A stretch of DNA of 64,000 nt, taken from the NCBI RefSeq assembly GCF_023206395.1, contig NZ_CP066149.1, forward strand, positions 124,001-188,000, in the 5' to 3' direction. The notes under the pieces are model-generated. The model searched no databases and was not told the DNA's origin. It was given only the letters and a program-made list of their open reading frames with translations. Each line of letters starts with the position of its first letter. Position 1 is the first letter of the stretch. The position numbers and the translations under genes were made by a program. Source of the DNA: Vibrio sp. ED004. Its GTDB lineage: Bacteria; Pseudomonadota; Gammaproteobacteria; Enterobacterales; Vibrionaceae. Shown piece after piece: positions 9,875-39,288 of this stretch.

Positions 9875-9885
9875 TTATAATACAA
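9875..9885. promoter_or_regulatory. Operator-like site 1 upstream of the AlyB-like gene
   Basis: TTATAATACAA matches TTGTANTACAA at all but one defined position and sits 14 bases before the start codon. Confidence 0.5.
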
Positions 9886-9981
9886 AGACAGCGTTCGTAA
9901 GTGAAAGCTAAATCAGCAAACACGAGCTATAAGGCGATTCCCCTCTCAGTATTTGCGATAACATGAAAATATTACGTAATC

Positions 9982-9992
9982 TTATAATACAA
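9982..9992. promoter_or_regulatory. Operator-like site 2 upstream of the AlyB-like gene
   Basis: The same 11-mer as at 9875 (TTATAATACAA) is repeated 107 bases further upstream. Paired sites at this distance could allow looping. Confidence 0.5.
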
Positions 9993-10215
9993 ATAAAACA
10001 TTTCATTGAATAAATGAGACTGGGAACACTTTCCGATTTTTCCATACTTTAACTGGATCACACTTCCTATTGATAAAAACAATATATAAAAAAATTGAAT
10101 GCGAAATAGGCTAGCAATACCAAAGCAACCTAGTTGAAATAACAAGTTTTGAATCCAGTGAATCCGCTCTTTTCAACGATAAGATCCAACGATTGCCTCC
10201 CTCCTCTCAGAACGC

Positions 10216-10254
10216 AAAAAGACCACATCGTTGTAAACCAATGTGGCCTTTTGA
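10216..10254 (-). terminator. Terminator of the tandem-PL7 lyase gene
   Basis: On the minus strand, GGCCACATTGG and CGATGTGGTC form a hairpin followed by TTTTT. It lies about 90 bases after the stop at 10347. Confidence 0.75.
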
Positions 10255-10346
10255 GTTACCGTTCTAGCTATTCAGGATTAGTGCGACTATTTAATGACCA
10301 GTGGTACTATTCAAGCATCAGTGATCGCATTCAACTCCCAGGAAAC

Positions 10347-12078
10347 TCAATAGTGCGCCGCTCTAAGAGAACTAAAGCTCACATCGAACACTTCACCGGC
10401 ATAGTCGCTATCAGGCTTAAATTGTGGATAGATGCCCGCTTTGAAATAGAAAGCAATATCTGTCGATGTCCAATCTGATGTTAACGACACCGTCTCCCCA
10501 TCTTTGTCGGTGTAATCTTGTCCCCATGGGATTGAATGAGAAACAGTGTTGGTTCCATCTAAGTCATGGGTTGCTAAGTACACACCGTCTTGGTTAGCAC
10601 GTATCGTATATCGCCACTCTTCACTGGCCGAATAAGTACCTAATTCAACACTGAACGGTTCGCAATGACCGCAGTCTTGGTTGTTTCGTTCAAAGTCGGA
10701 GTTTAGAATCACGCGTACTGGTTTACCCTCACCTTCCCAGAGCAACTTCACTAGGGCTTGATTAATCTTCCAGCCGTGTATTTGCCCAAGCACTACTTTC
10801 GGGTCTTGGTTATTAATGTTCGGATAGTCCTCGATTCTCAGGGTTGCGGTTAACTCATGACTGGTTGCGTTGGTTCTAGTGTCGTCCAAATACCAACTCG
10901 TATCTTCATCGCTGGTGCTGCAATCTGGTTGAGCATTACTTTGGTATAGCTCTCTGAGCTCAGAGCGAATATAGCTAGAGTTTTGCGTAGAGGTGCCATA
11001 TCCCATATCCGCTCTAAAGTGCATTCTTCCTTCATCGGCATTGAAGTAAGAAAGATTAATATCGCTGTGGTACACATCGCTATCATTTGAAAGCAGATCT
11101 TTGCTCGATTCACAGCGTTCCGGTTCTAACTCAGCAGCACTATCACCACCGCTTCCATACCAAGTATCTTTACTTGCCGGAATGGTCAGCTTCCAATCGC
11201 TAATATCCCAATCGTTTGAACCATCGATTTGAGTCGTTGTGTATAGCAATACCTGATAATAGGCGGTCGCTTCACCGTTTTCGAATTGATTATAGATTCC
11301 CACTTTAAAGTAACTCAGTAGATGCTGCCAGTAGGTGATATCTCCATCGACTTTAACTTCATCGTTCACTTTGATCGAAAGGGTGTTCTCATAAACAGAA
11401 AGATCAAACTTGGTGAAACTATCGAGTTCCGTCTCGCCCAAGTTGTAACGACTATATGAAGTAGTGTAACAATTTGAAGGGTCGACAGCACTGCTGCAAT
11501 CAATGGCATTGTTCTTCATGACAGCCCAATAATGGCCTGTGAGCCCATCTCGTTCTTGCTCCCAAACCACGCGTAATAAAGGATGTGGTATATACCCTGT
11601 GCCACTTTCGTCTGTGCCTTTATTGTGTATCTGTAGTAATGTCACTTCGTCATGATCGGCTGGTGAGCTAGCCATTGAGTTTTCAATATCGGGAAGGCTT
11701 ATTTCTGCGTATGGGTTTCGCTTCACGCCCGCTTCATTGACATCGAAGTTTTCTCCTTCGCGAACTTCAGAGCGCATCTTGTAATTGACAATTTTGAAGA
11801 TAAGATTCTCAGTTTCCCCCATCAACGTAAAAATAGTCGCTGACATAACCATCAAAGTTTCCATCTTTTAGTTCAGAGGTTTTATTACCCTCTTCTCCGC
11901 TAGCGTCAGACACCTGAAGATCAGAACTGGAAAGAATATTTTGGTACTTGGCAATGTCATATGGAGGGACTGCACCATATGACGTTCCAGGGTTTGTGAC
12001 ATCAGAAGGATCACTACTATCACTTGAGTCGCTTGAACTACTTCCACCACAGCCGTACTTGAGCGAAGCGAGTACCAC
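10347..12078 (-). pseudogene. Alginate lyase with two PL7 domains, split by a one-base frameshift
   Basis: Two overlapping frames together encode one protein of about 575 residues. The upstream piece (12078-11809) has a lipoprotein-like N-terminus (LASLKYGCGG, then a Ser/Asp-rich linker) and ends VSDYFYVDGGN. The downstream piece (from about 11815 to 10347) continues ETENLIFKIVNYKMRSEVRE. One extra G in a five-G run (plus-strand C run at 11816-11820) causes the break. Domain 1 has RSEVR, LLQIHNKG and YFKVGIYNQF. Domain 2 has RSELREL, LGQIHGWK and YFKAGIYPQF. Both keep the QIH His and the Tyr motif. The true start is unclear: the only in-frame starts are GTG, so a second small error near 12080-12110 is possible. 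The enzyme is functional only if the frameshift is a sequencing error. Confidence 0.83.
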
Positions 12079-12238
12079 AACGAAGATTGGTTTATTCTCA
12101 CTTATCCATAAGAGTAGAGTGATAATGTATATTTGTACTATTTTATGTCAATTGTCCATTTATCAGAATGTGAGATGCGGCAAATGAGGCGATATGAACC
12201 GTTTTTGCCGAGGGTTTAGAGACAAAAACAACGCAGAA

Positions 12239-12275
12239 AGGCCACTCTAAACTCGACAGGTTTGGAGCGGCTCTC
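12239..12275 (-). terminator. Likely terminator of the chemoreceptor gene
   Basis: On the minus strand, GCCGCTCCAAACC and GTTTAGAGTGGC form an imperfect stem followed by a short T-rich tail. It sits just after the MCP stop codon. Confidence 0.55.
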
Positions 12276-12327
12276 AGGCTAAAAACCAAAATTAACACAT
12301 TGATTTTTAGTGCTTATAGTAGAAACG

Positions 12328-14244
12328 TCAGACTTTGAAGCTACTCATTAGCTCGCTAACGCTACCATTCAATGTTTTGATTTCAGCGGATTCTGTCAGT
12401 TGATCTTGGCTTAGCTTATTGAGCTCCTCAACGAAGCTTTCAATCTTATGCATGTTCTTAGCGATACTCTGAATCAGGGCGTTTTGCTCAACAGAAGATC
12501 CTGAAATATCGTTATTGAAACGACTCACGGTTTCCATCTGTTCCGTTAGCTTCGCTAGCATGTTTACCGCTTGAACAACTTGAGCACGAGTCATCTCGCA
12601 ATTGCTCTTCGTTAACTCAATCGATTTAACCAAACCATCCGATTTAGACTGCAACCCAGACAGCGCCTCTTCTATTTCAGAGGTACTGATTTGAGTTCGG
12701 TTTGCTAGCGCACGGACTTCGTCAGCTACCACAGCAAAACCTCGACCATGCTCGCCTGCTCTCGCCGCCTCTATGGATGCGTTTAACGCAAGCAAGTTGG
12801 TTTGTTCAGCAATACCACCAATCACAGACACTATCGACTGGATGCTCTGCGTTTCATTAGCCATAGAACGAATATCATCAGACGTTGTGCAAACCTGTTT
12901 CTCAAGATCACTGATGTACGTTTCTGTCACTGTGTTGATTTGCTTAGTCTCGTCACTAAACACGGCCGTATCTCGCGCTGCTTCTGCCGCTGACTGTGAG
13001 TTCTTCTCGACTTCACTTGAAGCTTCAGACAACCCATTAATCGCAGAGACGACTTGAACCGTTTCATCGGTATGAACTTTCAGTACATCGCTGGTTTCTT
13101 TACAGCCTTCTCGAATACTTAATACCTTGGTATCAAGATCCGAGTTCTTGAATTTCACGTCTTTAACCATCTCTTGAAGGCCAATGATGAACAAGTTGAT
13201 GTCTTTGGCGATGTGTCCTAGGTCGTCATTGCCTTTCTCGGCAAGCCTTTGAGTCAGGTCGCCATTACCTTGAGAAAGGTCGTGAACAATTTTACGCAGT
13301 GACACGATTGGGCGGTAGAAACGATTCAGGAGTAGAATCATTAATATGACTGACCCCAATACACAGGCAATAATCAGCATTCGAGCATCTGACATCACAC
13401 CATTCAGCTGATTGAGCGCGAGATCAGGGTCAATACTTGAAATCATGTACCACTCTTTCTGGCTGCCAATATCGACCTTCTTAGCCATCAAGATTCGCTG
13501 ATTACCATCAATCACACCTTCAATAAATTGATCCGGTCGTTCGATGGCTTTGTTGAGTTTCATTAAGGCGTCAGCAGAAGAGATATTGCTCTGTGGAAGC
13601 ACGTTGTCTATTGTGGATGCGACGACCATCCCTCTCTCATCCACGATGATACCTGTCGCTTCGTAGATGCTATCTAGCTGTTTGAGTTGAGTTTCCAAAT
13701 CATCGAATCGAATGTCCGCCATGATCACGCGATCTTGGTATGAGTAAGTCACACCAATCATAGGCACTTGAGTACTCTTGGTGAAAAACAGATCACTAAA
13801 AGATAAGCCTGATTTCAATTTCGCTTGTTGATACCAAGGGCGAGTCGTTGGGTTGTATTTTTCTTTGATTCCAACACCATTAGGGAAAGACTCTGAAGGA
13901 CGAGAAGTGTAAGAACGGCCGTCGTCAAAACCCACCACAATTTTGTCAATGCCACCGAGCTTTGCAGCATAATGCATGAGTGCTTCATTCGGCACTTGGT
14001 ATGGGGATTTCATGAATTCTTGTGCAACGGAGTTGACCGTATCTATGGTGCGCTGAACGGTACTTTCTATTTGATTGATTTCTATCGTAAGCGAGTGATC
14101 AATCTCGTTATAAATCGTTTGGTTTACCTGTTCAGTGGCCAAGTTAAGCGTAAACCAGTTCGTAAATGCTAAAGCACTAGAACTAACGATCGCTACCATT
14201 AAAATCAATTTTCCTTTAAACCCTAGAGACAATTTTGAATTCAT
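12328..14244 (-). CDS. Methyl-accepting chemotaxis protein with periplasmic dCache-type sensor
   Basis: This is a membrane chemoreceptor that senses a periplasmic ligand and signals to CheA/CheW. The start is placed at MNSKLSLGF (14244), preceded by GGTGATGAG; ATG at 14253 is possible. A first membrane helix lies near 10-30, then a periplasmic double-Cache sensor (about 35-285, with RPWYQQAK, the hallmark of Cache domains) and a second helix ([17 protein letters not shown]). A HAMP domain and a long cytoplasmic coiled coil follow, with the conserved tip [19 protein letters not shown]. There is no C-terminal pentapeptide for CheR tethering. It stands alone between lyase genes on the same strand, so a role in chemotaxis to alginate products is plausible but inferred. 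Confidence 0.92.
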
Positions 14245-14670
14245 AAAACTCATCACCCATATCAACCTATGTCTATTATTTTCATCCGAATGAAATGGTT
14301 ATTTTTTGCATTTTCGAAGATACGGGAAGTGAAACCTGTTCATGCCGTTCCATCGTCACAACCATCAATTTAATTAATATTGTATGTTTAATTAACTGCA
14401 CTTTCTGTGAGCGATCTTGATATATCAAAACTGGTTAAAACTACCCTGTGACATAGGTATCATTTATGAGTTTGAAACTTTTAACGTGATTAGAAAGGAA
14501 TGATTAACCAATCAAAACTGATCAACTTTCAGATAATTACCTCACAACTTCGCCGATAATGCCTTTACTCAAATTATTCATATCACTTTCGGTCATCTGA
14601 CTAGGAAAGTGAGCCTTAAGTCACATTTTCACTAACCAACCATTCACTAAAGGCATTCAACCTTAAAATT
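14245..14670. other. Upstream region of the chemoreceptor
   Basis: This AT-rich region of about 425 bases must hold the MCP promoter (reading left). It contains a TGTGACATAGG stretch (14448-14458) reminiscent of half a CRP site. No ORF or repeat is apparent. Confidence 0.4.
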
Positions 14671-14673
14671 TAT

Positions 14674-14684
14674 TTGTAATACAA
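14674..14684. promoter_or_regulatory. Operator-like palindrome TTGTAATACAA
   Basis: This is an exact match to the recurrent palindrome. It contains TACAAT, which could serve as a -10 box for rightward transcription into the terminator-ended stretch at 14690-14915. It is about 430 bases from the MCP start, far for direct control of that gene. Confidence 0.6.
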
Positions 14685-16917: not shown

Positions 16918-18996
16918 TTACAGTTCAATTGAAACCGTTTCGCCGTCAACATTAAGCAGTAGCGTGTTGCCTTCAAGCTTGTGAGACACTTCAACTTGCT
17001 CGCCTTCGTTCTTATTAGGAACAAGAAGCGTTAGGATGTTGTGCTCTTTAGAAGGCTTGAATTCCACTTCAACGTGACGGTGAATTTCAAGATCTTCAAA
17101 CTCGTATGGGTCAACTTCGCCGAAGCCTTCAACGTTCTTAACTGAAGTGATGTTATCAGCAGACTCGTTGATGAGGTTCACGTCAAGGTGCGCTACTTCA
17201 CCACGGATAGTGAAAGATTTATCAGCCACTTCGTTTGCGAAAGTTGTGTGCATTAGCCAAGTCATGTCTTTCTCTTCAGAAAGTGTCGCCTTGTCTTGCA
17301 TTACGAATACTTTACCTTGAACAAACCAGATCTTACGCTTGTAAGATTCGATTTCAGGAACGAAGTATTTGTAAGATGCCGTTGCATCACCTTCAACCAT
17401 CTTCACATCAGATTCTGTGTCGAAGTCAGAGATTGTACCGCCCGCTTCAATACAGAAACGGTCTTGGTGGTTCTCGTAACCTGTGTTCTTGTTCTCGCCG
17501 TACTGGCCTTTTCCGCCGAATAGTGGCAGGTTTTTCGAGAACGTGTGACGACGCCATTTGGTGTGCATATCAACACCGAAACCACCGTAGTAGCCAGTGA
17601 TTGACGCTAGCGTTTCACCGAATGCATGCAACGTGAATGCGTTCTGGTCACCGTGAGAGTGACTGATTGAGCCAAACGGAGAACACTTAAATACCATGTG
17701 AATATGGTTATCACGCTCAGTCATCTTGTTGTGGAATGCAGCCCAACCCGTGATTGGGAACACTTTCAACAATGGATCGTTTGATGGCGCTTTCTCTTCT
17801 GGTGCATCCCAAAGGATGTTGAAGCGAAGATCGTCGTAACCGAAGTCCCACCAGCCGAAGTTGTAGAACTTCGTGTGCGCTTCAGTATCACGGCCTTTAA
17901 GCTGGTTGTAGTACCAAACGTACTCCGGCTTCTGGTTAACACCTGCGTAGTGCTTGATGTTGTAAGCCAGTTTTAGACCAGGGAAATCACCGATTGAAGA
18001 CTGGTCACAGAAGCTTGCGCGCTTAGAGTGAACAGGCATGCAGTAAAGCGGGAAGTCACCGGTGTTTTCGTAGAATGTTTTATTGAACATGTCTACGCCG
18101 CAGTACGCTTTCAATAGGTCGAATGCTTCGCCTAGGAATGCAGTTTGCGTGTTCCAGTAATCAGGACCTTCAGCCCAACCGCCGTCTACACCGCCCCATG
18201 GTGGGTAGTGTACTGCGTAGTATTCTAGAGCGTAAGCAATGTACTCGCCTGCTTTCGGGTGATCGTGGTAAAGCGCGATACACGTTGGGATGATAGCAGA
18301 AGAGATAGAACGAACACCGTGACTGTTTAGTGGGTTGTTCAATAGATCAACCGTCACTTTCAGGTGATGCATGATTTCGTCTAGACGCTCAATCAACGCA
18401 TCTTGAACTTGCTGACGTTCTTCATCTGTGAAGTAGCCGTGTAGCCAGTCGTAACCCCAAGCCATAGCCGCGATAACACGGAAAGCCGCTTCATCGTTAT
18501 AGCCACGAGAAGTCACACCTTCAGGATCGTACGTAGACAGTTTTAGAGTCCAAGCTTTTGCATTCGCAATTAGCGCTTCGTCTTCTTTTACCACACCAGC
18601 AATCGCTAGGTTACGTGTCGCGTTCAGTGCCATTTGGCAATCAACGTACATTTGACGCCAGTAAGGACGCCATAAAGAAGCTTTGCCTACTGTTTCCGCA
18701 GGGTACGCTTGAGGCTCTTCGAAAGGTGCTGTCTCAAGGAACTTAACGGTAGAGTTGTTGTAGAAATCATCAAACATGCAGTGAGCTTCATCAGCTTTCA
18801 CTTTTGCTTTAAATTCTTGTAGCTGATCTGCTTGAACAAGAAGACGTGGACGTGCTTCGCTCAAGTTGTCTAGGAATGATAGGTCGAAGTCACGTTTTTG
18901 TACTTCGATAGGGAGTAGGTCTACAAGATTACCTGCTGAAGTGTCATTCTCCAGCTTCATCTTCCTGATTGCATCAAGAGATTTTTGGTCGCTCAT
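16918..18996 (-). CDS. oalA: Oligoalginate lyase, polysaccharide lyase family 15 (OalA-like)
   Basis: This 692-residue enzyme is of the PL15 exo-oligoalginate lyase type, with an N-terminal (alpha/alpha)-barrel followed by a heparinase II/III-like beta-sandwich half. Recognisable parts are the barrel segments RGYNDEAAFRVIAAMAWGYDW and NSHGVRSISSAII, WGGVDGGWAEGPDYWN, and the HSHGDQNAFTLHAFGE segment typical of heparinase II/III C-terminal domains. It releases unsaturated monouronate from short oligomers. No signal peptide is present, so it should act in the cytoplasm after symporter uptake. An operator-like palindrome (19053-19063) and a CRP-like site precede it. It has its own terminator, so it is transcribed separately from the symporter gene upstream. 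Confidence 0.92.
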   Translation of the reverse strand: MSDQKSLDAIRKMKLENDTSAGNLVDLLPIEVQKRDFDLSFLDNLSEARPRLLVQADQLQEFKAKVKADEAHCMFDDFYNNSTVKFLETAPFEEPQAYPAETVGKASLWRPYWRQMYVDCQMALNATRNLAIAGVVKEDEALIANAKAWTLKLSTYDPEGVTSRGYNDEAAFRVIAAMAWGYDWLHGYFTDEERQQVQDALIERLDEIMHHLKVTVDLLNNPLNSHGVRSISSAIIPTCIALYHDHPKAGEYIAYALEYYAVHYPPWGGVDGGWAEGPDYWNTQTAFLGEAFDLLKAYCGVDMFNKTFYENTGDFPLYCMPVHSKRASFCDQSSIGDFPGLKLAYNIKHYAGVNQKPEYVWYYNQLKGRDTEAHTKFYNFGWWDFGYDDLRFNILWDAPEEKAPSNDPLLKVFPITGWAAFHNKMTERDNHIHMVFKCSPFGSISHSHGDQNAFTLHAFGETLASITGYYGGFGVDMHTKWRRHTFSKNLPLFGGKGQYGENKNTGYENHQDRFCIEAGGTISDFDTESDVKMVEGDATASYKYFVPEIESYKRKIWFVQGKVFVMQDKATLSEEKDMTWLMHTTFANEVADKSFTIRGEVAHLDVNLINESADNITSVKNVEGFGEVDPYEFEDLEIHRHVEVEFKPSKEHNILTLLVPNKNEGEQVEVSHKLEGNTLLLNVDGETVSIEL

Positions 18997-19052: not shown

Positions 19053-19063
19053 TTGTAGGACAA
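19053..19063. promoter_or_regulatory. Operator-like palindrome upstream of the PL15 gene
   Basis: TTGTAGGACAA differs from TTGTANTACAA at one defined position and keeps both outer arms (TTGT and ACAA). It sits 57 bases upstream of the start. Confidence 0.6.
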
Positions 19064-19214: not shown

Positions 19215-20993
19215 TTAGCTTTCGGTTACCGTTTTCGCTTGCTTGCCGCCGTCATCGACCGCTTTAACAAGTAGCACACCAACACCACCAACAATCACAC
19301 CACATAAGATGAAGACTAGACGTCCCCACATTGGGTTAGTTAGTAGAGCCATTAGCATAATACCCACACCTGCTACTGCAATCAGTTTACCAAGCATTTC
19401 ACGCTGCTTGTTATCCAGTACTTTCTGCTCTGCAGACTCAGCGACTAACGGAGTAGATAGGTTACCGAAGAACTTATCAACGTCTGCTTGACGCTTCTCA
19501 GACAGTGGTTTGTAGAACAATGTCGATAGGATGAAGAAGCCACCTGTTAGTGTAATGTGGCCAATTAGACCAATCGCAACTTTAACATCAGACCATTCAC
19601 GGCTCGTTAACTCTTCAAGACCGAATACAGATGACACCATTTCAGCGTTTACAACGAAACCTACGTAGTAAGATACAAGGCCACCCACTACTAGCGTACC
19701 CCAACCTGCCCAGTCTGGAGTCTTCTTAATGAAGAAGCCTAAGAATGCAGGGATTGTCATTGGGAAGCCGATTAGAGCACCAACGTACATCATTGTATCG
19801 AACAGGCTCAAACCTTTAAGCGAGTTAATGAACTGAGCGATAAGGATGATAGCGATACCGAAGACTGCAGAAGTAATCTTAGAAACCGTTACTAGCTCTT
19901 TCTCACTTGCGTTGCCTTTACGAACAATAGTTTCGTAGAAGTTCTTAACAAAGATACCTGAGTTACGGTTTAGACCTGAGTCCATAGAAGACATTGTCGC
20001 TGCAAACATCGCCGCAACTAGAAGGCCTACCATACCTGCTGGCATGTACTCTTGTACGAAGTATAGGTATGCAAAGTCACCTGCTTTCTTACCAGCTTCT
20101 GGGTAAGCAGCTGCTAGGTCGACACCTTGACCAGCGATGTACCAAGAAGGCATGAACCAAATGAATACACCACAAAGCATTAGCACACATGCAAGCAGTG
20201 CTGCTTTCTTAGCATTCTTTGAGTCTTTAGCCGCTAGGTAACGGTAAGAGTTAAGCATGTTGTTCGTAATAGAGAATTGCTTCACGAAGATGAAGAATGC
20301 CCAGATGCTGAAGATGCTTAGGTAGTTGATGTTGTTACCAGAAAGGAATGAACCGCCTTCTGCTACAGGGAAGTTATTAACGATTTCGCCAATACCGCCG
20401 CCTTGTACAACCGCAACAACAGCACATGTAACCGTAACTGCCATGATGATAACCATCTGCATAAAATCAGATGCGATAACTGCCCATGAACCGCCCGTTA
20501 CTGACATAGCTAATACTACTAGACCAGTAATCCAGATAGTCGCTGTCATGTCGAAGCCGAAGATACCAGAAGCGATGATTGCTAATGCGTTTAACCATAC
20601 ACCTGCAGAAACCACACTATTTGGCATTGAAGACCAAGTGAACACTTGTTCGTTAGTCGCACCAAAACGCATACGGATTGCTTCAATTACCGTCACTACA
20701 CGTAGTTGACGGAACTTAGGTGCGAAGTATGCGAAGTTCATGAAGTAACCAAAAGCATTGGCGATAAAGATAACCGCTACGGCAAAACCATCGTTATACG
20801 CTTTACCTGCCGCACCGGTGAATGTCCATGCACTAAACTGGGTCATAAAGGCGGTTGCACCAACCATCCACCACAGCATATTACCGCCCCCGCGGAAGTA
20901 ATCACTGGTGGTACTAGTAAATGTCCTAAACATCCAACCTATCGCAATCAAGAATAGGAAATAAATGCCGACAATAATCGTGTTGAGTTCCAT
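19215..20993 (-). CDS. Sodium:solute symporter, ToaA-type oligoalginate/uronate transporter
   Basis: This 592-residue inner-membrane protein of the SSS family has about 13-15 hydrophobic helices. Family marks include TSDYFRGGGNMLWWMVGATAF near the start, the AAMFAATMSSMDSGLNRNSG segment (helix 8 sodium-site region) and a conserved hydrophilic tail. It is closely similar to the second symporter at 39350 (shared TQFSAWTFTGAAG, KTPDWAGW, GREWSD). Homologues in V. splendidus alginate loci (ToaA/ToaB) take up short oligoalginate or DEH with sodium. The exact substrate here is inferred. A perfect operator-like palindrome lies 60 bases upstream. Confidence 0.88.
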   Translation of the reverse strand: MELNTIIVGIYFLFLIAIGWMFRTFTSTTSDYFRGGGNMLWWMVGATAFMTQFSAWTFTGAAGKAYNDGFAVAVIFIANAFGYFMNFAYFAPKFRQLRVVTVIEAIRMRFGATNEQVFTWSSMPNSVVSAGVWLNALAIIASGIFGFDMTATIWITGLVVLAMSVTGGSWAVIASDFMQMVIIMAVTVTCAVVAVVQGGGIGEIVNNFPVAEGGSFLSGNNINYLSIFSIWAFFIFVKQFSITNNMLNSYRYLAAKDSKNAKKAALLACVLMLCGVFIWFMPSWYIAGQGVDLAAAYPEAGKKAGDFAYLYFVQEYMPAGMVGLLVAAMFAATMSSMDSGLNRNSGIFVKNFYETIVRKGNASEKELVTVSKITSAVFGIAIILIAQFINSLKGLSLFDTMMYVGALIGFPMTIPAFLGFFIKKTPDWAGWGTLVVGGLVSYYVGFVVNAEMVSSVFGLEELTSREWSDVKVAIGLIGHITLTGGFFILSTLFYKPLSEKRQADVDKFFGNLSTPLVAESAEQKVLDNKQREMLGKLIAVAGVGIMLMALLTNPMWGRLVFILCGVIVGGVGVLLVKAVDDGGKQAKTVTES

Positions 20994-21052
20994 CGTGTAT
21001 CCTTTGTCCGTTGTAATTTGTTACGAGAACTATAGGAAATCTCAAACCTTAT

Positions 21053-21063
21053 TTGTAGTACAA
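21053..21063. promoter_or_regulatory. Operator-like palindrome upstream of the first symporter
   Basis: TTGTAGTACAA is a perfect match to the recurrent palindrome, 60 bases before the start codon. Confidence 0.65.
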
Positions 21064-22028: not shown

Positions 22029-22039
22029 TTGTCATACAA
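22029..22039. promoter_or_regulatory. Operator-like site upstream of the TctCBA operon
   Basis: TTGTCATACAA matches TTGTANTACAA at all but one defined position, 39 bases before the first gene's start. Confidence 0.58.
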
Positions 22040-22548: not shown

Positions 22549-22573
22549 TAATTAGAAACAGAAGGAACTTACT

Positions 22574-24049: not shown

Positions 24050-24057
24050 GAGGTAAT

Positions 24058-31641: not shown

Positions 31642-33795
31642 TTACAGTTGAGCAAATGATCCTTCCCACGAGTATGTCTCACCAGCAAACTCAACCGTGT
31701 GAGTTGCTTGCTGCTTATCTTCAGCTTGATTTGAAATACCGTAGTGGTAAGTGTTGCCAGATGTCGTTTGAATGCGCACAACAGTCCCGACACTGTTATG
31801 GCCAACAACAGACACTGATTTAACCAGACCACGAGCGCCTACAGAGGCTTCGATAGACTCGTTAAAGTAACCGTGTGTTTCCAATACAGAAGCAAACACA
31901 TGGTTTTGACCAGACTGACGTAAGATGAACGCAGGCTCACTCTTAAGGTTGAAGTCTGGATCGTTAGCACCAGTGCGAGCAAAGATAACTTCGCTGCCCG
32001 CATTAGCGCTGGTTACTAGGCTGTAGTAGCTGCTGTCATGTAGCCAGCTTACTAGAGAACCTTCTTCGTTCACTTTGCCTGAAGCAACGTTCCATAAATG
32101 TTGGTAACCGTTGTCTTCACCTAACGGCTTAAGCGTTGTTTCCATGTTGTAATCGAAGTCAGTACGAATGATTTGACCAGAGTGGTGAACTGGTAAGTCG
32201 TACTGGTGCTCAGCGTCAGCTTCGATGCGGTAAACATCAATCACTAGCGGCTTCTCGAACTCAGGAAGTTCAGCAAGAATCACGCTGCGTTGCATGTCTA
32301 CGCCTGTATAGTACTCAGAAATTGTGCCGCTCATGCCTTGCAAAGACTGGTCGTCTGCTACGAAGAAGTGCTTCTGACCAAACTTAGACTCAGCCAATGC
32401 TGTGTTGAAGTTATTCTGCGTTTTCTGATCAACCGTTACTGTGTTGTGAGCAACCGTCTGCTTACAGTAAGACTTGTTCTCTGGAATGTAACGACCACCA
32501 AACTTAGGCTCAACGTTTACCCAGCGACCGAAGCCGTAATCGTGCAGCACTTCGTGGCCACGGTTGAATACACTTAGGTGCAGTCCATCGTAGTGACCGT
32601 GGTCTAGCGCAGAGTGGTACTGGTGATCGCTGCCGTGTTGACCAAACCAGATCAACGCCATTGTGTCGTCGTCTTTCTCGTCACGGTGACGAAGGATGCT
32701 TACGCCGCCTTTTTCGCCTTCAGGGCCGTCCGTTACAAACAGGCTACCCCAGTTGAATGCTTTGATGTCGTCTGCTGCATCAACCGCATCAGACAGTGTT
32801 TTACCAGAAGCATGAACCCAAACATTTTTCTGGTGATCAGCCATACCAAGCAGAGTTTCAGTCTGCTCGTAACGGTGGTAACACACAGACGTAGCCATGA
32901 TAACGCCTTCATCGTTGATAGAGATCGTCTTCGATGAATCGTTCAGAGCAGGCAATGTACCGTCTGGGAATACAGTTTTGAATACAGAGTAAGACGTTGT
33001 CTTGATTACTGAATCGTTAAATTCGTAAATACCAATTTCTGGCTGACGACGTTCAATCGCTTCTGCGAACAGGTAGATTGGACGTAGAGAGAAACGGTGG
33101 TAGTAAGGACCTTCCATGTAGTAGCCGTCTGGCGAGAATAGTTGGTCAAGTTGCGCTAGGAAACCGCCGCTTACTTTGTCCAATTTCAGGCCGTAAAGTG
33201 CTTTATCTACAGATTCTTGATCGTTGATCGCGTAACCACAGATACCTACTGCAGCCACTGCCCATAGGCCGTGGTTGTGTACGATATCGAAGTCGTGTGC
33301 GTAAGTAACAACGAACATTTCGATCATTTGCTTAAGAAGATCGTCTTCGATAAGGCGCTTCTGCTCTTCAGAGATAGTGTGGTAAATGCAGCTGTACGCA
33401 CAAGAAGCGTAAAGCATCCACATGTTCTCGTTCAACGTTTGGTGGAACAGCTTACCCGGAGGGTTAGTGTCACGGCTTACGTTGCTTTCCAATGTTGGGT
33501 ATACCGTCGCGTACGCAGTTAGCATATCAACGATGTAATCACGGTACTTTGTTTCCTCAGTGATAAGGAACAAACGACCCGCTAGATCCATATGGATGTA
33601 GTTTTGCTTGTGACGGTTGTGCTCGTAACCGCCGCCTTCACCGTGACCTGGTACTTCAATGCCAACTTCAGCCATGTAAGCGTCAGTTTGTTTAATGTCA
33701 CGAGTTAATGCGTTACCTAAAAGGCTATCCTTGCCAAGTTCTTTACGAAGCTCTGTTGCTTCATCAAAGTTAAGTAAAAGTGGTTGATAGCTCAT
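31642..33795 (-). CDS. Oligoalginate lyase, polysaccharide lyase family 17 (second of pair)
   Basis: This 717-residue PL17 exo-lyase has an N-terminal alginate-lyase barrel (about 1-330) with the catalytic HNHG (173-176) and GPYYHR (about 229-234), corresponding to the His and Tyr known from the family's crystal structure. A heparinase II/III-like beta domain follows, with DHGHYDGLHLSVFNRG and GGRYIPENKSYCKQTVAHNTVTVD. It cleaves oligomers to unsaturated monouronate. No signal peptide is present, so it is cytoplasmic. The start ATG lies two bases after the stop of the upstream PL17 gene. The two are co-transcribed paralogues, equivalent to the OalB/OalC pair of V. splendidus. Which is which was not resolved. 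Confidence 0.93.
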   Translation of the reverse strand: MSYQPLLLNFDEATELRKELGKDSLLGNALTRDIKQTDAYMAEVGIEVPGHGEGGGYEHNRHKQNYIHMDLAGRLFLITEETKYRDYIVDMLTAYATVYPTLESNVSRDTNPPGKLFHQTLNENMWMLYASCAYSCIYHTISEEQKRLIEDDLLKQMIEMFVVTYAHDFDIVHNHGLWAVAAVGICGYAINDQESVDKALYGLKLDKVSGGFLAQLDQLFSPDGYYMEGPYYHRFSLRPIYLFAEAIERRQPEIGIYEFNDSVIKTTSYSVFKTVFPDGTLPALNDSSKTISINDEGVIMATSVCYHRYEQTETLLGMADHQKNVWVHASGKTLSDAVDAADDIKAFNWGSLFVTDGPEGEKGGVSILRHRDEKDDDTMALIWFGQHGSDHQYHSALDHGHYDGLHLSVFNRGHEVLHDYGFGRWVNVEPKFGGRYIPENKSYCKQTVAHNTVTVDQKTQNNFNTALAESKFGQKHFFVADDQSLQGMSGTISEYYTGVDMQRSVILAELPEFEKPLVIDVYRIEADAEHQYDLPVHHSGQIIRTDFDYNMETTLKPLGEDNGYQHLWNVASGKVNEEGSLVSWLHDSSYYSLVTSANAGSEVIFARTGANDPDFNLKSEPAFILRQSGQNHVFASVLETHGYFNESIEASVGARGLVKSVSVVGHNSVGTVVRIQTTSGNTYHYGISNQAEDKQQATHTVEFAGETYSWEGSFAQL

Positions 33796-33797: not shown

Positions 33798-36005
33798 TTA
33801 TTTCCCCTGCTCTGCAGTGCTAAGTTCTTCTGAATTTGTTTCTTGTAGAGTTGTCTCTACTGAGTAGAAGCCTGTCCAGCTGTATACTTTGCCGTTCAGT
33901 TCTACCTTATGTTCAGTGCTGTCAGTCGCACCAAGTTGGTTGCTGATCATCACTGTCACATTTGATTTCTCTGTGCTGATTTCGACGACTGAACCTACAT
34001 TTGTATGCGCTACAACCTTAATGTTTTTCACAACGCCGCGAGCATTGACTGATTGCTCGAACTCTTCGTTGAAGTAACCGTGCGTTTCTAGAACAGAAGC
34101 GAACAGTGTTGTTTCGCCCTTGCTACGTAGAATGAAAGCAGGCTCTGAACGTAGGTTGAAGCTTGGGTCGTTCGCGCCAGTGCGAGTAAAGATAACTTCA
34201 GCATTGTCGTTAGACGTTGCACTTAACCATGTGTAGTAGGTGTTGTTTTGTAGCCAGCTCACAAGTGCCGTGCCATTCACATCACCGCTTGCTACGTTCC
34301 ATAGGTGTTGGTAACCGAAGTCACTACCCAGCGTGTTCAACTCTTTGTTCGCTTGGTATTCAAAGTTAGTACGAACAATCTGGCCGGCATATTGGTGTGA
34401 GTAGTCGTATTGGTGTTCGCCTTCGCCACCTTTATCAGAATCTAAGCGGTAAAGATCCAATAGTAGCGGAGATTCCAACTCTTCAAGATTTAGCATGAAC
34501 ACGCTGCGTTGCATGTCAAAACCTTGGTAGTGGTCGTTAGCAAACGCACTCATGCCGTTGATTTGCTCGTCTTCTACTTTGAAGAAGTGTGGTAAGCCGT
34601 GTACTGCGTCTGCACGTTCAACATCAAAGTTGTTCTGGCATTTTTCATCAATCGTTACTGCGTTGTGAGCAATAGTTTGACGAGCGTAAGATTTGTTTTC
34701 ATCTAGGTAGCGGCCGCCAAATTTAGGCTCAACGTTGACCCAACGGCAGAAGCCGTATTCACGCAACACTTCTTGACCGCGGTTGAAGAAAGAAATACCT
34801 AGCGTATCAAAGTTACCGTGACCCATGCCGTGTTGGCCGTAGTTCATAACAAGTTGAGAAACGTCTCCTTTCTTGTCCTGCATACGGATAAATCCTTGCG
34901 CGCCGTTATGACCTTGAGGACCTTCGCTCAATTCAACACTTGGCCAGAAAGGCATGCCAATTTCTTTCTCTGCAGAAGCGGCTTCGTAAGCTTTAGACAG
35001 CTCAAGACCACATGGATGCATCCATACTGCGTCTTGAATCTTAGCCATACCCAGAATATTTTGGTCTACGCCGTTTTCAGAAGAGTAGTGCTTGCTGTAA
35101 ACACTTACCGCAACCTGAACACCCATGTCTGTGATACCCATAGTACGAGAAGCATCATTCAGAGCCGGGAACTCACCGTTCGGGTAAGCCGTCGCAAGCA
35201 TGGCTTGTACTGTGTTACCAATCACGCCGCCTTTGTAGTTGTAGATATCAACTTCAGGCATGTGTCTGTGGATCACTTCAGCGAACACACAAGTCGGGCG
35301 AATTGCGTAACGGTGGTAGTAAGGACCTTCCATGTAGTAGCCGGAAGGTGCAAACAGCTGAGAAACTTGCGCTAGGAAGCCACCAGTGTCGTTACGGTCA
35401 ATGCCGTACACTGACATTTCAAGGTACTCACGCTTGCCTAAAGCAAGACCACAAATACCGACAGCAGCTACTGCCCAAATGCCGTGGTTGTGAATTCGGT
35501 CGAAGTCGTGTGCGTATTTAACCGTAAACATTTCTAACATTGGTTCAAAAATGCGAGACTCAATATTGTCACGTTGTTCTTGTGTTAGGGTTGAAGCAAC
35601 ACAAGAGTAAGCTAAGCTTGAGAACATTAACCAACAGTGTTCGTTCAGGATTTGGTGGAACAAACGACCTGTAGGGTTTGTGTTTTTCTGTACGTGGTAA
35701 TCAAACGTTAGATATTTGTCAGCGTACTCTTCTAGTAATTCTGTAACAAAGTCAGCGTATTTTTGCTCTTTAGTGATCAAGAACATGCGACCAGCTAGGT
35801 TCATATATGTGTAATTTTGCTTATGGCGGTTGTGTTCGTAACCCCCAGCTTCACCATGACCTGGGACATCAATAGGTAGACGCATGAATGCTTCTAGGTC
35901 TTTCGCGTTCGCTGCAATGGTTTTGCCCATTAAGCTAGAACGGCCTACTTCAAGATGAAGCTGCTCGATTTCTGCTTCAGTCAACAATACTGGTTTAGTC
36001 GTCAT
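33798..36005 (-). CDS. Oligoalginate lyase, polysaccharide lyase family 17 (first of pair)
   Basis: This 735-residue PL17 exo-lyase is taken from the ATG giving MTTKPVLLTEAE (36005); ATG at 36023 is possible but less well placed. The catalytic motifs HNHG (172-175) and GPYYHRY (about 228-232) and the C-terminal GGRYLDENKSYARQTIAHNAV segment are intact. It is clearly paralogous to the following gene, with a longer charged tail (TTLQETNSEELSTAEQGK). No signal peptide is present. The gene is divergent from kdgF; the shared 330-base region has two operator-like palindromes and a CRP-like site. Confidence 0.93.
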   Translation of the reverse strand: MTTKPVLLTEAEIEQLHLEVGRSSLMGKTIAANAKDLEAFMRLPIDVPGHGEAGGYEHNRHKQNYTYMNLAGRMFLITKEQKYADFVTELLEEYADKYLTFDYHVQKNTNPTGRLFHQILNEHCWLMFSSLAYSCVASTLTQEQRDNIESRIFEPMLEMFTVKYAHDFDRIHNHGIWAVAAVGICGLALGKREYLEMSVYGIDRNDTGGFLAQVSQLFAPSGYYMEGPYYHRYAIRPTCVFAEVIHRHMPEVDIYNYKGGVIGNTVQAMLATAYPNGEFPALNDASRTMGITDMGVQVAVSVYSKHYSSENGVDQNILGMAKIQDAVWMHPCGLELSKAYEAASAEKEIGMPFWPSVELSEGPQGHNGAQGFIRMQDKKGDVSQLVMNYGQHGMGHGNFDTLGISFFNRGQEVLREYGFCRWVNVEPKFGGRYLDENKSYARQTIAHNAVTIDEKCQNNFDVERADAVHGLPHFFKVEDEQINGMSAFANDHYQGFDMQRSVFMLNLEELESPLLLDLYRLDSDKGGEGEHQYDYSHQYAGQIVRTNFEYQANKELNTLGSDFGYQHLWNVASGDVNGTALVSWLQNNTYYTWLSATSNDNAEVIFTRTGANDPSFNLRSEPAFILRSKGETTLFASVLETHGYFNEEFEQSVNARGVVKNIKVVAHTNVGSVVEISTEKSNVTVMISNQLGATDSTEHKVELNGKVYSWTGFYSVETTLQETNSEELSTAEQGK

Positions 36006-36072
36006 ATTCTTTGTCACCCTCAATAAAGAGTTTATCTGCTTAAACTTTGATTAAATTTTCAAACTCCATATA

Positions 36073-36083
36073 AAGTAATACAA
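36073..36083. promoter_or_regulatory. Operator-like site upstream of the PL17 pair
   Basis: AAGTAATACAA matches 8 of 10 defined positions of TTGTANTACAA and keeps the right arm fully. It lies 68 bases before the first PL17 start. Confidence 0.5.
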
Positions 36084-36224: not shown

Positions 36225-36240
36225 CTTGATCAATATCACA
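36225..36240. promoter_or_regulatory. CRP-like site between the PL17 pair and kdgF
   Basis: On the minus strand, TGTGATATTGATCAAG matches TGTGA-N6-TCACA at 8 of 10 positions. Its centre is about 27 bases from the perfect palindrome at 36255. Confidence 0.45.
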
Positions 36241-36254: not shown

Positions 36255-36265
36255 TTGTATTACAA
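36255..36265. promoter_or_regulatory. Operator-like palindrome upstream of kdgF-kdgK-eda
   Basis: TTGTATTACAA is a perfect match with flanking A/T that extends the symmetry to ATTGTATTACAAT. Confidence 0.65.
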
Positions 36266-36338: not shown

Positions 36339-36674
36339 ATGAACTCTTTCTTTATCTTAGATGAAAACCCTTGGGAAGAACTTGGTGGCGGTATTAAGCG
36401 TAAAATCGTTGCTTACACTGACGATCTAATGGCTGTACACCTATGTTTTGACAAGGGCGCGATTGGTCACCCTCATACTCACGAAATTCACGATCAAATC
36501 GGTTACGTGGTTCGTGGCAGCTTCGAAGCTGAGATTGAAGGTGAAAAGAAAGTACTTAAAGAAGGCGATGCTTACTTCGCTCGTAAACACATGATGCACG
36601 GTGCCGTTGCTCTAGAGCAAGACAGCATCCTTCTTGATATCTTCAACCCTGCGCGTGAAGATTTCCTAAAATAA
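36339..36674 (+). CDS. kdgF: KdgF, unsaturated uronate linearising cupin
   Basis: This 111-residue single-cupin protein converts the cyclic 4,5-unsaturated monouronate released by exo-lyases to linear DEH. The four functional residues known for KdgF are present at the same numbers: His46, His48, Gln53 and His87 (GHPHTHEIHDQIG and KHMMHG). It is cytoplasmic, with no signal peptide. ATG 36339 follows TTAGGAGATACACA, a strong ribosome-binding site. It is the first gene of the kdgF-kdgK-eda operon, with gaps of 34 and 73 bases. Confidence 0.95.
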   Translation: MNSFFILDENPWEELGGGIKRKIVAYTDDLMAVHLCFDKGAIGHPHTHEIHDQIGYVVRGSFEAEIEGEKKVLKEGDAYFARKHMMHGAVALEQDSILLDIFNPAREDFLK

Positions 36675-36708
36675 TTAATAGCGCAACCTCAGTTGCTAAG
36701 GTAAGCAT

Positions 36709-37641
36709 ATGAAATCATTAAACATCGCGGTCATTGGCGAGTGCATGGTTGAGCTACAAAAGAAACAAGACGGGCTTAAGCAGAGTTTTGGTGGCGATAC
36801 ACTGAATACAGCACTTTACCTGTCACGCTTAACAAAAGAGCAAGATATCCAAACAAGCTATGTAACAGCGTTAGGTACTGACCCATTCAGTACCGACATG
36901 TTGGAAAAGTGGCAAGCAGAAGGTATCGACACGAGCTTAATTGCTCAGCTTGATCACAAACAACCAGGGCTTTACTACATCGAGACCGATGAAACTGGTG
37001 AGCGTAGCTTCCACTACTGGCGTAGTGACGCTGCTGCGAAATTCATGTTTGATCAACAAGACACGCCTGCTCTACTTGATAAGCTATTCTCTTTTGACGC
37101 GGTTTACCTAAGTGGTATTACGCTTGCTATCTTGACAGAGAACGGACGCACGCAGCTATTCAACTTCTTAGACAAATTCAAAGCTCAAGGCGGCCAAGTA
37201 TTCTTCGACAATAATTACCGTCCTAAACTTTGGGAAAGCCAACAAGAAGCGATTTCTTGGTACTTGAAAATGCTTAAGTACACCGACACAGCGTTACTGA
37301 CGTTCGATGACGAGCAAGAGCTGTACGGCGACGAAAGCATTGAACAGTGTATTGCACGTACGTCTGAGTCTGGTGTGAAAGAGATCATCATTAAGCGCGG
37401 CGCGAAAGACTGCCTAGTGGTTGAAAGCCAAAGCGCTCAGTACGTTGCTCCAAACCCAGTAGACAACATTGTTGATACTACAGCGGCTGGCGACTCGTTC
37501 AGCGCAGGCTTCTTAGCTAAGCGTTTAAGCGGTGGCAATGCACGTGATGCAGCATTGGCAGGTCATATTGTGGCAGGAACTGTGATTCAGCATCCAGGTG
37601 CTATCATTCCTCTAGAAGCAACGCCAGATCTGTCTCTATAA
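36709..37641 (+). CDS. kdgK: 2-Keto-3-deoxygluconate kinase
   Basis: This 310-residue PfkB-family sugar kinase phosphorylates 2-keto-3-deoxygluconate to KDPG with ATP. It shows the N-terminal PfkB pattern (VIGECMVEL, FGGDTLNTALYLSRL) and the C-terminal signature DTTAAGDSFSAGFLA (from residue 256), whose GD supplies the catalytic Asp (262). It is the middle gene of the operon, between kdgF and eda. Confidence 0.95.
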   Translation: MKSLNIAVIGECMVELQKKQDGLKQSFGGDTLNTALYLSRLTKEQDIQTSYVTALGTDPFSTDMLEKWQAEGIDTSLIAQLDHKQPGLYYIETDETGERSFHYWRSDAAAKFMFDQQDTPALLDKLFSFDAVYLSGITLAILTENGRTQLFNFLDKFKAQGGQVFFDNNYRPKLWESQQEAISWYLKMLKYTDTALLTFDDEQELYGDESIEQCIARTSESGVKEIIIKRGAKDCLVVESQSAQYVAPNPVDNIVDTTAAGDSFSAGFLAKRLSGGNARDAALAGHIVAGTVIQHPGAIIPLEATPDLSL

Positions 37642-37714
37642 TTACGCACTTTAACTATTAATCAAGGGTTTGCTTAGTTGAAAGCAAGCCCACATTTAAC
37701 GTGAGAAAGAATTC

Positions 37715-38341
37715 ATGACTACATTAAATGAACAACTAGCAAACCTAAAAGTAATCCCTGTAATCGCGATCAACCGTGCTGAAGACGCTATCCCTTTAGG
37801 TAAAGCTCTTGTTGAAAACGGCATGCCATGTGCAGAAATCACGCTACGCACAGAATGTGCAATCGAAGCGATTCGCATCATGCGTAAAGAGTTCCCAGAC
37901 ATGCTAATCGGTTCAGGTACTGTGCTGACTAACGAGCAAGTTGACGCATCTATCGAAGCTGGTGTTGATTTCATCGTAAGCCCAGGTTTTAACCCTCGTA
38001 CTGTTCAATACTGTATCGACAAAGGTGTTGCAATCGTACCGGGTGTAAACAACCCAAGCCTAGTTGAGCAAGCAATGGAAATGGGCCTTCGCACGCTGAA
38101 GTTCTTCCCTGCTGAGCCTTCTGGCGGCACTGGTATGCTTAAAGCACTGACAGCGGTTTACCCTGTTAAATTTATGCCTACTGGCGGCGTAAGCTTGAAG
38201 AATGTAGATGAATACCTATCGATCCCTTCTGTTCTTGCGTGTGGCGGTACTTGGATGGTTCCAACTAACCTTATCGACGAAGGTAAGTGGGACGAACTAG
38301 GTAAGCTTGTTCGTGACGCTGTTGATCACGTTAACGCTTAA
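37715..38341 (+). CDS. eda: KDPG aldolase
   Basis: This 208-residue class I aldolase splits 2-keto-3-deoxy-6-phosphogluconate to pyruvate and glyceraldehyde 3-phosphate. It is a TIM barrel with Glu41 in EITLRT and the Schiff-base Lys129 in LKFFPAEPSGG, the Eda active-site pair. GSGTVL and PTGGVSLKN supply phosphate-binding loops. It completes the route from alginate to central metabolism. ATG 37715 follows GTGAGAAAGAATTC. Last gene of the operon; a terminator follows. Confidence 0.95.
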   Translation: MTTLNEQLANLKVIPVIAINRAEDAIPLGKALVENGMPCAEITLRTECAIEAIRIMRKEFPDMLIGSGTVLTNEQVDASIEAGVDFIVSPGFNPRTVQYCIDKGVAIVPGVNNPSLVEQAMEMGLRTLKFFPAEPSGGTGMLKALTAVYPVKFMPTGGVSLKNVDEYLSIPSVLACGGTWMVPTNLIDEGKWDELGKLVRDAVDHVNA

Positions 38342-38362
38342 TCTGTTTTAGATTTAGTGATG

Positions 38363-38386
38363 AAGCCTCACTTCGGTGGGGCTTTT
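38363..38386 (+). terminator. Terminator of kdgF-kdgK-eda
   Basis: AAGCCTCA-CTTCGG-TGGGGCTT forms a short GC-rich stem with a tetraloop-like turn, followed by five T. Confidence 0.85.
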
Positions 38387-38418
38387 TGTTATCTGCCGTT
38401 TATCGCACCGACTAGCAG

Positions 38419-38584
38419 TAATACCCATCGTGGTAAATAGCTGGTCACCCTAACTTGCTAAAACGCCCGATAACTGCGTTAGAACTTTTGATTGTAGAAT
38501 AACTACTTATCGAAAATTTCTGCCTTTTTCTCAAGCCTTTTCCCTACGCTATTTTTGATCACTTACTTACTGTGATTGGTATAA
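38419..38584. repeat. MITE-like 166-base element with imperfect terminal inverted repeats
   Basis: The left end TAATACCCATCGTGGTAAATA and the complement of the right end, read inward as TTATACCAATCACAGTAAGTA, match at 15 of 21 positions when both are read from the element's ends. No ORF is inside. Its size and ends resemble the small non-autonomous repeats scattered in Vibrio genomes; naming a family would need a search. Confidence 0.55.
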
Positions 38585-39250
38585 GACACTCTCAATCGAC
38601 TTTCTGTTTACCCACACATTCTATCACCTTTATCTCTATGGCTTCGTACAGGTCCGTGACTAAGACAAGCAAGAGCGTAGTGATGTGAGTTTTCAATCAA
38701 CGTCAGCACGCATCTGGCTGAGCGTTACTGGCGTATCTACGTCTATCACCCCTTATCCAAAAATGTTCCTTTTCAATACATCACCAAACATCTCGCATAG
38801 CATGTACAGAAGGTAACAATAGACAAAGTGAGCCGAAAAATGTGTCCCGTTGTACAGTTTAACGCCCACTCACTGACAAAAATTCCAAATATGTGCCTCT
38901 CTAGTTCGAAAAAGTAGTAAATAGCATAGAAAGGCTACATAGCCGCAGACAAACAAAAAATAGCGAAGTGAAAACAATAGGCTACTCTTGAACTCCCAAT
39001 TAGGAATCTTCAAGTATAGCGTTGTAAATTAACGTGAACCTAGTCGCACAATACACTAATTTGTAGCATATTTGTTACGGTTATAATTAAAATCTTATAG
39101 ATAAGAGAAAGTAAGCGATTTTTCTTATATTGTAATACATATGAACATTTAACCTTCAATTTATTTCACAACAAAAATAAATTCCACGCACAATTAATAT
39201 CCATTAAAACAACAACTTAAAAGATTTTTCAGTATTCAGTAAAAAATCAA
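38585..39250. other. Intergenic region between eda and the second symporter
   Basis: No supported ORF or RNA gene is seen. An operator-like TTGTAATACAT (39130-39140) lies in it, before the main promoter elements of the symporter. Confidence 0.45.
39130..39140. promoter_or_regulatory. Operator-like site, distal, upstream of the second symporter
   Basis: TTGTAATACAT matches TTGTANTACAA at all but the last position, 210 bases before the start codon. Confidence 0.5.
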
Positions 39251-39266
39251 TGCGACCTAGATCATA
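39251..39266. promoter_or_regulatory. CRP-like site upstream of the second symporter
   Basis: TGCGACCTAGATCATA matches TGTGA-N6-TCACA at 8 of 10 positions. It is about 25 bases (centre to centre) upstream of the perfect palindrome at 39278. Confidence 0.45.
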
Positions 39267-39277
39267 CTAAAGACATA

Positions 39278-39288
39278 TTGTAGTACAA
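39278..39288. promoter_or_regulatory. Operator-like palindrome upstream of the second symporter
   Basis: TTGTAGTACAA is a perfect match, 62 bases before the start, the same spacing as at the first symporter (60 bases). Confidence 0.65.

Follow-up and report, generated by a model that had tools for sequence, protein, structure and literature searches.

AlgO of Sphingomonas sp. A1 is a GntR-type protein. It is a transcriptional regulator of alginate genes, and AusR of Zobellia galactanivorans is a GntR-family repressor of alginate catabolism that is released by alginate oligosaccharides (both in the review PMC8286568). In Shewanella, a regulator of the alginate pathway, AlgR, was predicted by comparative genomics (PMC2996990). 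The operators of the FadR subfamily, that of DgoR and others, have GT and AC three nucleotides apart (PMC4494728). Operator IR1 of Escherichia coli DgoR contains TTGTAGTACAA (PMC12288454), the E. coli dgo promoter is activated by CRP and repressed by DgoR (PMC7567609), and D146, H150 and H195 are the metal ligands of DgoR (PMC7674646). The regulation of alginate use in Vibrio was called elusive in a 2026 paper on Vibrio sp. C42, whose locus holds gntR-1, dehR, gntR-2, gntR-3, a symporter and TctCBA, and in which gntr-1 and gntr-2 deletions were made (PMC13390454). Here we analysed a stretch of 64,000 nucleotides from Vibrio sp. ED004 (C1:124001-188000 of a two-contig, 5.83-Mb genome; hereafter the window) that carries an alginate locus, and the palindrome TTGTANTACAA that recurs in it, a candidate operator of FadR-type (GntR/FCD) regulators.

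An initial annotation of the window had proposed that the palindrome marks an alginate regulon, and this reading is strongly supported by footprints conserved across genera, by co-occurrence with GntR genes and by the presence of the 11-mer in operator IR1 of DgoR. The palindrome also has the form attributed to it, with GT and AC three nucleotides apart as in the FadR subfamily (PMC4494728), and the regulator of the sites is very probably of the FadR type. A single regulator is not supported. The one FadR-type gene placed in the middle of the locus, GntR-C (25820-26536), is alone within the window but not in the genome, where two further FadR-type GntR genes, A and B, lie 3.0-5.7 kb before the window start.

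All site coordinates of the initial annotation were correct on rescanning, and the palindrome is genuine. Copy numbers in the window were judged against 100 shuffles and those in the genome against the reversed pattern. Exact TTGTANTACAA occurs four times in the window (14674, 21053, 36255 and 39278; shuffle mean 0.18) and 12 copies are found with up to one mismatch (shuffle mean 3.31), numbers that none of the 100 shuffles reaches. The one-mismatch additions are 9875, 9982, 19053, 22029 and 39130, together with three copies inside coding sequence (16049, 17906 and 19510) that were missing from the earlier list. With up to two mismatches there is no enrichment (53 copies against a shuffle mean of 44; 12/100 shuffles reach 53), and two-mismatch copies were dropped as count-based evidence since their number is at chance level. 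Sites 5117 (TTGTCATACAT) and 36073 (AAGTAATACAA) are thus backed by their position, kept in 5/7 and 7/7 of the genomes compared, and not by count. Likewise, the whole-genome scan that the initial annotation had put forward gave no overall enrichment (13 exact copies versus 19 of the reversed control; 199 versus 345 with up to one mismatch) but a clear local clustering: six of the 13 exact copies fall within the 54-kb alginate block C1:109415-163288, which starts outside the window and accounts for 0.9% of the genome sequence (P 1e-9 by a binomial test, about 1e-7 once corrected for placement). Clustering, not whole-genome enrichment, is the right test of this palindrome. A 19-base matrix built from the six block sites found 10 places of at least 15 bits in 104 kb, all at locus genes and six of them the seeds.

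Genome contigs were scanned with the GntR-A, GntR-B and GntR-C proteins, and the best 80 of 117 relatives were kept (1.54 Mb of loci). They hold 95 exact copies, whereas shuffles gave 4.4, the reversed pattern 11 and each of 19 palindromes of matched composition 0-9. Exact copies are present in 59/80 loci; none of these counts is a probability, because related species do not supply independent loci. Only six of the 95 copies lie inside ATG reading frames of at least 150 amino acids, though such frames make up 79% of the bases. In the 350 bp 5' of each gene, with the 19 matched palindromes as controls, exact copies precede 36/52 symporter genes (largest control 0), 19/73 PL17 genes (1), 10/28 kdgF genes (0) and 4/21 SDR-type dehR genes (0). 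All seven PL15 relatives have a copy within one mismatch (largest control 1), and the TctCBA unit has 3/8 exact copies and 6/8 within one mismatch. Symporter relatives at least 75% identical carry an exact site in 36/43 cases, those less than 45% identical in 0/9. Of the Photobacterium, Psychromonas and Motilimonas loci, 13/14 carry one exact copy or more. In the enterobacterium Mangrovibacter (L071), where the A-type gene is 78% identical to the query and the symporter 88% identical, a variant site stands at the same place; both genes were probably gained by horizontal transfer.

Placement was compared in the own genome and six close relatives (G017, G018, G011, G024, G087 and G005; n = 7), and the sites before the PL15-like gene, PL17/kdgF, symporters 1, 2 and 3, the AlyB-like gene and the chemoreceptor are present wherever the gene was found with its start. 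Across the 80 loci, the distance from site to start codon is 57-64 bp for 33 of the 36 symporter sites. In the window the perfect sites stand 59 and 61 bp from the ATG of the two symporters, so that the near-equal distance noticed initially (there 60 and 62) was confirmed. Of 27 symporter promoters that are pairwise less than 85% identical, 22-25 have TCAC at -16 to -13 relative to the operator, where it forms the better half of a CRP-like 16-mer; the other half of this TGTGA-N6-TCACA element is weak. A TATAGT-like -10 can be seen by eye downstream of the operator in many of these promoters. At symporter 1, operator and TATAGT are 18 bases apart, so that the operator would be centred near -36 and the CRP-like element near -60. 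A second, weaker copy (36073 and 39130 in the window) or a conserved half-site CACTTGTATGAT is found upstream of many symporter operators (L023-L102), and the paired copies or half-sites look as if two dimers bind or the DNA loops.

The sites and genes of the window are given below, with functional names from Pfam and partly from gene order, and with genome counts from the seven-genome comparison.

5117-5127, + strand: weak operator TTGTCATACAT, two mismatches, 12.9 bits; 85 bp 5' of the KdgM-like porin gene and 378 bp 5' of the divergent PL7 gene
5213-5971, + strand: KdgM-type porin (PF06178)
8293-9885, - strand: AlyB-like PL7 alginate lyase with F5/8 type C domain (Pfam); probable ATG at 9861
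9875-9885, - strand: probable operator TTGTATTATAA, one mismatch; 13 bp before the probable AlyB-like ATG
9982-9992, - strand: probable operator TTGTATTATAA, one mismatch; 120 bp before the same ATG; 7/7 genomes
12328-14265, - strand: methyl-accepting chemotaxis protein (dCache, HAMP, MCPsignal; Pfam)
14674-14684, - strand: exact palindrome, 408 bp 5' of the chemoreceptor gene
16918-18996, - strand: PL15-like gene (DUF4962, Hepar_II_III_C; Pfam), the PL15 label being that of the initial annotation
19053-19063, - strand: operator TTGTCCTACAA, 56 bp 5' of the PL15-like gene; 7/7 genomes
19215-20993, - strand: sodium:solute symporter 1 (PF00474)
21029-21034, - strand: putative -10 TATAGT, 18 bp past the symporter 1 operator
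21053-21063, - strand: exact operator, 59 bp before symporter 1; 7/7 genomes
21075-21090, - strand: putative CRP-like element TAAGATCACCATCACT at a fixed offset from the symporter 1 operator
22029-22039, + strand: operator TTGTCATACAA, 38 bp 5' of ATG 22078, the start of the first gene in the TctCBA unit
22078-25557, + strand: small unknown gene, then TctC, TctB and TctA (Pfam)
25820-26536, - strand: GntR-C, FadR-type regulator (GntR and FCD; Pfam), with no good operator before the gene
31642-33795: second gene of the PL17 pair (Pfam)
33798-36023, - strand: PL17-type alginate lyase, first of the PL17 pair (Pfam)
36073-36083, - strand: weak second copy TTGTATTACTT, two mismatches; 49 bp before PL17; 7/7 genomes
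36225-36240, + strand: putative CRP-like element CTTGATCAATATCACA before kdgF
36255-36265, no strand assigned: exact operator common to the divergent PL17 and kdgF-kdgK-eda units; 7/7 genomes
36339-38341, + strand: kdgF, kdgK and eda (Pfam)
39130-39140, + strand: upstream operator TTGTAATACAT, one mismatch; 209 bp before symporter 2; 6/7 genomes
39251-39266, + strand: putative CRP-like element TGCGACCTAGATCATA in the symporter 2 promoter
39278-39288, + strand: exact operator, 61 bp before symporter 2; 7/7 genomes
39350-41116, + strand: sodium:solute symporter 2 (PF00474)

The alginate locus of the window includes PL7, PL15-like and PL17 lyases, a KdgM porin, two sodium symporters, TctCBA, kdgF-kdgK-eda, a DEH-reductase-type gene and a chemoreceptor. 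The locus starts before the window, where symporter 3 is found with a chondroitinase-B-type (PL6-like) gene, an Alginate_lyase-type (PL5-like) gene and another porin, as well as gntR-A, an SDR gene taken as dehR, gntR-B and a MATE gene (L014). The exact copy at C1:109699 is read as belonging to the control of symporter 3; a divergent open reading frame with MORN repeats could be its target instead. Site 9875 falls inside the longest AlyB-like reading frame, which begins at TTG, and we had planned to discard it; this was reversed on account of its conservation at the same place in 5/6 AlyB-like genes checked, with an exact copy in the more distant G007. Site 9982 was found in all six. The porin site recurs at 86-87 bp in G017, G018, G011 and G024 and is absent before the porins assigned in G087 and G005. 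The chemoreceptor site is in place in 5/7 genomes, the own included, which are all those in which the gene was found with its start, at a gap of 405-418 bp. The 22029 site was seen in G018 only in this comparison since an upstream TTG had been taken as the start in the two other genomes listed.

Between the exact operator and the chemoreceptor gene (14266-14674) lie about 400 bases without a clear gene, a length kept in five genomes, and an inverted repeat with CTTAAGTTAT arms stands directly upstream of this operator. An RNA element in this leader of about 400 nucleotides was considered and rejected, as Rfam at gathering scores gave only group II introns in the window. Pieces of such introns (1279-1610, 3367-3536 and 61338-63334) and reverse-transcriptase genes are found at both window ends, and the left pieces separate the gntR part of the alginate locus from the remainder. 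An integrase-core gene lies at 6178-6759. The alginate block is followed by two giant reading frames, 42269-52510 (3413 amino acids, with DUF5801 and an RTX calcium-binding repeat) and 52579-60771 (2730 amino acids).

GntR-A, GntR-B and GntR-C all exceed the Pfam cut-offs for an N-terminal GntR winged helix and a C-terminal FCD domain. A and C are 87% identical and their first 82 residues differ at positions 2, 3, 4 and 31 only, while B is 55% identical to A; the recognition helix SRTALRE is found only in these three among the seven FCD regulators of the genome. Vibrio sp. Isolate34 and 14G-20 have identical or almost identical GntR proteins, which places the genome in Vibrio and probably in the splendidus group. 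In a genus sample of 118 genomes, taken from a larger group, 48 were GntR-bearing (a match at E 1e-40 or better). An A/C-type protein (at least 72% identical to C) is present in 48/48, with a stop in the copy of G016 and an incomplete copy in G059, a B-type protein in 47/48, and a C orthologue (at least 96%) beside A in only 8/48. A symporter match below E 1e-240 was found in 47/48 of the GntR-bearing genomes and in 0/70 of the others, 14 of which have weaker relatives only. The mean number of exact palindrome copies is 9.4 in the GntR-bearing genomes and 3.4 in the other 70 (Mann-Whitney P 2e-17, kinship ignored); the reversed control averages 11.8 and 10.2 (P 0.04). G101, whose only A/C-type gene is 78% identical to C and in which no match to B was found at E 1e-40, has 11 exact copies, two of them 66 and 63 bp before two symporters. 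The B gene is found in 0/14 stretches examined from the Photobacterium, Psychromonas and Motilimonas loci. The A/C type is the best-supported regulator because it is present in all 48 genomes and because sites occur without C (G101) and without B (these 14 loci). The proposal that the single gene 25820-26536 is the regulator is therefore not supported: GntR-C is likely a redundant copy of the A/C-type regulator, and GntR-B is a possible regulator of the sites. In a tree, a B clade (100/98) and the splendidus-group C clade (100/99) fall among the A-type sequences; long branches prompted a warning from the program. Autoregulation of the gntR genes is weak at best, with copies of up to one mismatch in the 80 loci before 10/79 A/C genes (controls mean 3.5, largest 8) and 5/49 B genes (largest 5).

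Outside the block, a PL7 lyase gene on the second contig (L011) has the seventh exact copy of the genome 11 bp 5' of its probable ATG, and a TRAP DctP gene (L007) is preceded by the eighth at about 136 bp; the other five (L008, L009, L010, L012 and L013) are in or beside genes that, judged by eye, have no visible alginate link. In six GntR-bearing genomes chosen among those listed, counting all outside copies as regulon members was rejected, as 10/20 copies outside or at the edge of the locus fall inside reading frames of at least 150 amino acids. Others precede lyase genes of the PL7 or PL15-like type, a TRAP gene, or genes with no link to alginate. Similar TRAP DctP genes with an exact copy about 130-136 bp upstream are found in the own genome (L007:1365-1511) and in a more distant genome of the genus (L160:1899-2038), and the TRAP DctP gene is a possible further member of the regulon.

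The locus of Vibrio sp. C42 has the same gene order as that described here, the two being matched by order and not by sequence. According to the C42 paper, alginate induces AUL lyase, catabolic and transport genes, with the exception of an ABC transporter and gntR-3; the counterparts of these two units here have no site above 6.0 bits. The induced genes include dehR-1, gntR-1, gntR-2 and all six AUL lyases, and the gene in the position of C is the only GntR gene of the locus without induction (PMC13390454). The main text of that paper contains 'palindrom' and 'EMSA' zero times and 'motif' twice, both on transporter proteins. Among the papers listed in the literature searches, none was seen to name an operator for Vibrio alginate genes; an earlier prediction is possible, as the details of Shewanella AlgR and work on hexuronate regulons lay outside the search.

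Several observations weigh against the sites being operators of an alginate regulon under these GntR proteins. No exact copy is present in 21/80 loci. KdgM porin genes have 1/56 exact copies and 14 within one mismatch (largest control 5), and exact copies are few before PL6 (1/20), PL5 (1/17) and PL7 (0/9) genes. They are lacking before chemoreceptors (0/5), where the 350-bp span is too short, and before TctC (0/8), which is not first in its unit. The seven close symporter relatives without an exact site are one Vibrio locus, that of Mangrovibacter with its variant, and five Shewanella loci, which have A/C-type genes and symporter relatives 84-86% identical, yet no site. The CRP-like element is imperfect, with 4-9 of 10 consensus bases, mostly 6-7, at the best of 12 offsets. 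No good site stands here before dehR or gntR-A (4.3 and 4.4 bits), gntR-B or PL7c (5.3 bits), though the C42 counterparts are induced. Six of the 70 GntR-negative genomes hold 7-10 exact copies; chance or other proteins therefore also yield the motif. In G007 (L161:1807-2886) an exact copy is flanked by a FadR-type GntR gene of another kind and a gene with an agarase-CBM domain, and the operator may thus serve other regulators too.

The sites, their conservation and position and their co-occurrence with GntR genes were observed directly, and we infer binding, repression, an effector and the action of CRP. Probably, A/C-type DgoR-like repressors bind TTGTANTACAA at the alginate promoters, a sugar acid releases them and CRP assists. 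The operator would be TTGTANTACAA extended by A/T on both sides and would serve A/C-type FCD regulators related to DgoR, namely GntR-A, encoded a short way before the window, GntR-C, which is nearly a copy of it, and perhaps GntR-B, a more distant paralogue. In the absence of alginate, these proteins, probably dimeric, would cover the -35 region of the symporter promoters, and would also occupy and repress the promoters of AlyB, PL15, the PL17 lyase, TctCBA and kdgF-kdgK-eda. The symporter and kdgF promoters have a putative CRP site, near -60 at the symporters. Upon alginate breakdown, a sugar-acid product, for example DEH, KDG or a short unsaturated oligomer, would bind the metal site of the FCD domain and the repressors would leave, while cAMP-CRP would assist transcription.

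To the mere recurrence of an A/T-rich palindrome without function we give almost no credence: the lack of two-mismatch enrichment in the window and of any genome-wide enrichment would fit it, but conservation, position and matched controls make chance very unlikely. An unrelated transcription factor that travels with alginate loci is improbable; co-occurrence cannot separate the regulators of one locus, and the six GntR-negative genomes rich in copies would suit such a factor, but the motif obeys the FadR-subfamily rule (PMC4494728) and stands in the DgoR operator, and Pfam scans of 30 open reading frames of the window and 12 of L014 (the rest, mostly short or overlapping, were not scanned) gave no DNA-binding regulator besides A, B and C. 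GntR-C as the sole dedicated regulator, with A and B in other roles, is quite improbable. It sits in the middle of the regulon beside the TctCBA unit, its DNA-binding domain is that of A but for 4/82 residues, and the C42 gene in its position is uninduced, as a resident repressor might be (PMC13390454); its orthologues, however, are found in 8/48 genomes where the A/C type is found in 48/48, and sites occur in genomes without it, G101 included.

That the GntR regulators act as activators, or in both ways, is unlikely. PL5 and the chemoreceptor have their sites 245 and 408 bp from the gene, distances too great for simple blocking if the promoter does not itself lie well upstream, but the operator centre near -36 of a TATAGT-like promoter at the symporters is a repressor position, one of the AlyB sites is 13 bp from the ATG, and AusR and DgoR are repressors (PMC8286568, PMC12288454). 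More tentatively, A, C and B may share one operator over some ten promoters and divide the labour: a constant C would silence the block while A and B would sense different alginate products or form mixed dimers, and uptake, cleavage, monomer catabolism and chemotaxis would be switched stepwise. This is possible, though we would not expect it. Release of A/C-type repressors by a sugar acid is the preferred reading. With the operator defined, few regulators to choose among and the target promoters listed, the regulation of alginate use in Vibrio becomes directly testable. Alginate genes away from the main locus can also be picked out by the operator, among them the PL7 lyase gene (L011) and possibly the TRAP transporter (L007).

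The sites precede lyase, uptake and catabolic genes, as expected of alginate-responsive GntR repressors such as AusR and AlgO. Both are likened by description; AusR is from a flavobacterium, and AlgO belongs, unlike the present regulators, to the pit transport system. The Shewanella AlgR may overlap with the regulator described here. An AlphaFold model (mean pLDDT 79, pTM 0.70) gave general GntR/FCD matches only, with TM of at most 0.5 to the model length among the matches listed, and was not used for the effector.

DgoR is the second-best PDB match to GntR-C and the best to GntR-B, and in a literature text search with exact 11-mers and a degenerate form the DgoR paper has the 11-mer as operator, the other matches being judged on title and abstract opening. 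DgoR D146, H150 and H195 align with D160, H164 and H205 of GntR-C, which are invariant in 23 sequences, and DgoR R102 and R224 are kept as R112 and R234. In an ungapped C-terminal alignment R179, W181, D184 and T191 correspond to N189, I191, S194 and C201. With the metal ligands kept and several residues of the galactonate pocket (PMC7674646) replaced, the domain would suit a different sugar acid. The present system differs from DgoR in its distant sequence (PDB match E 1.5e-18) and these four pocket residues, in its alginate neighbours instead of dgo genes, and in its three paralogues and many promoters instead of one operon. It may be likened to DgoR in domain plan, in the 11-mer of operator IR1, in the aligned metal ligands, in a promoter apparently activated by CRP and controlled by a repressor, and in the probable class of its effector, a sugar acid.

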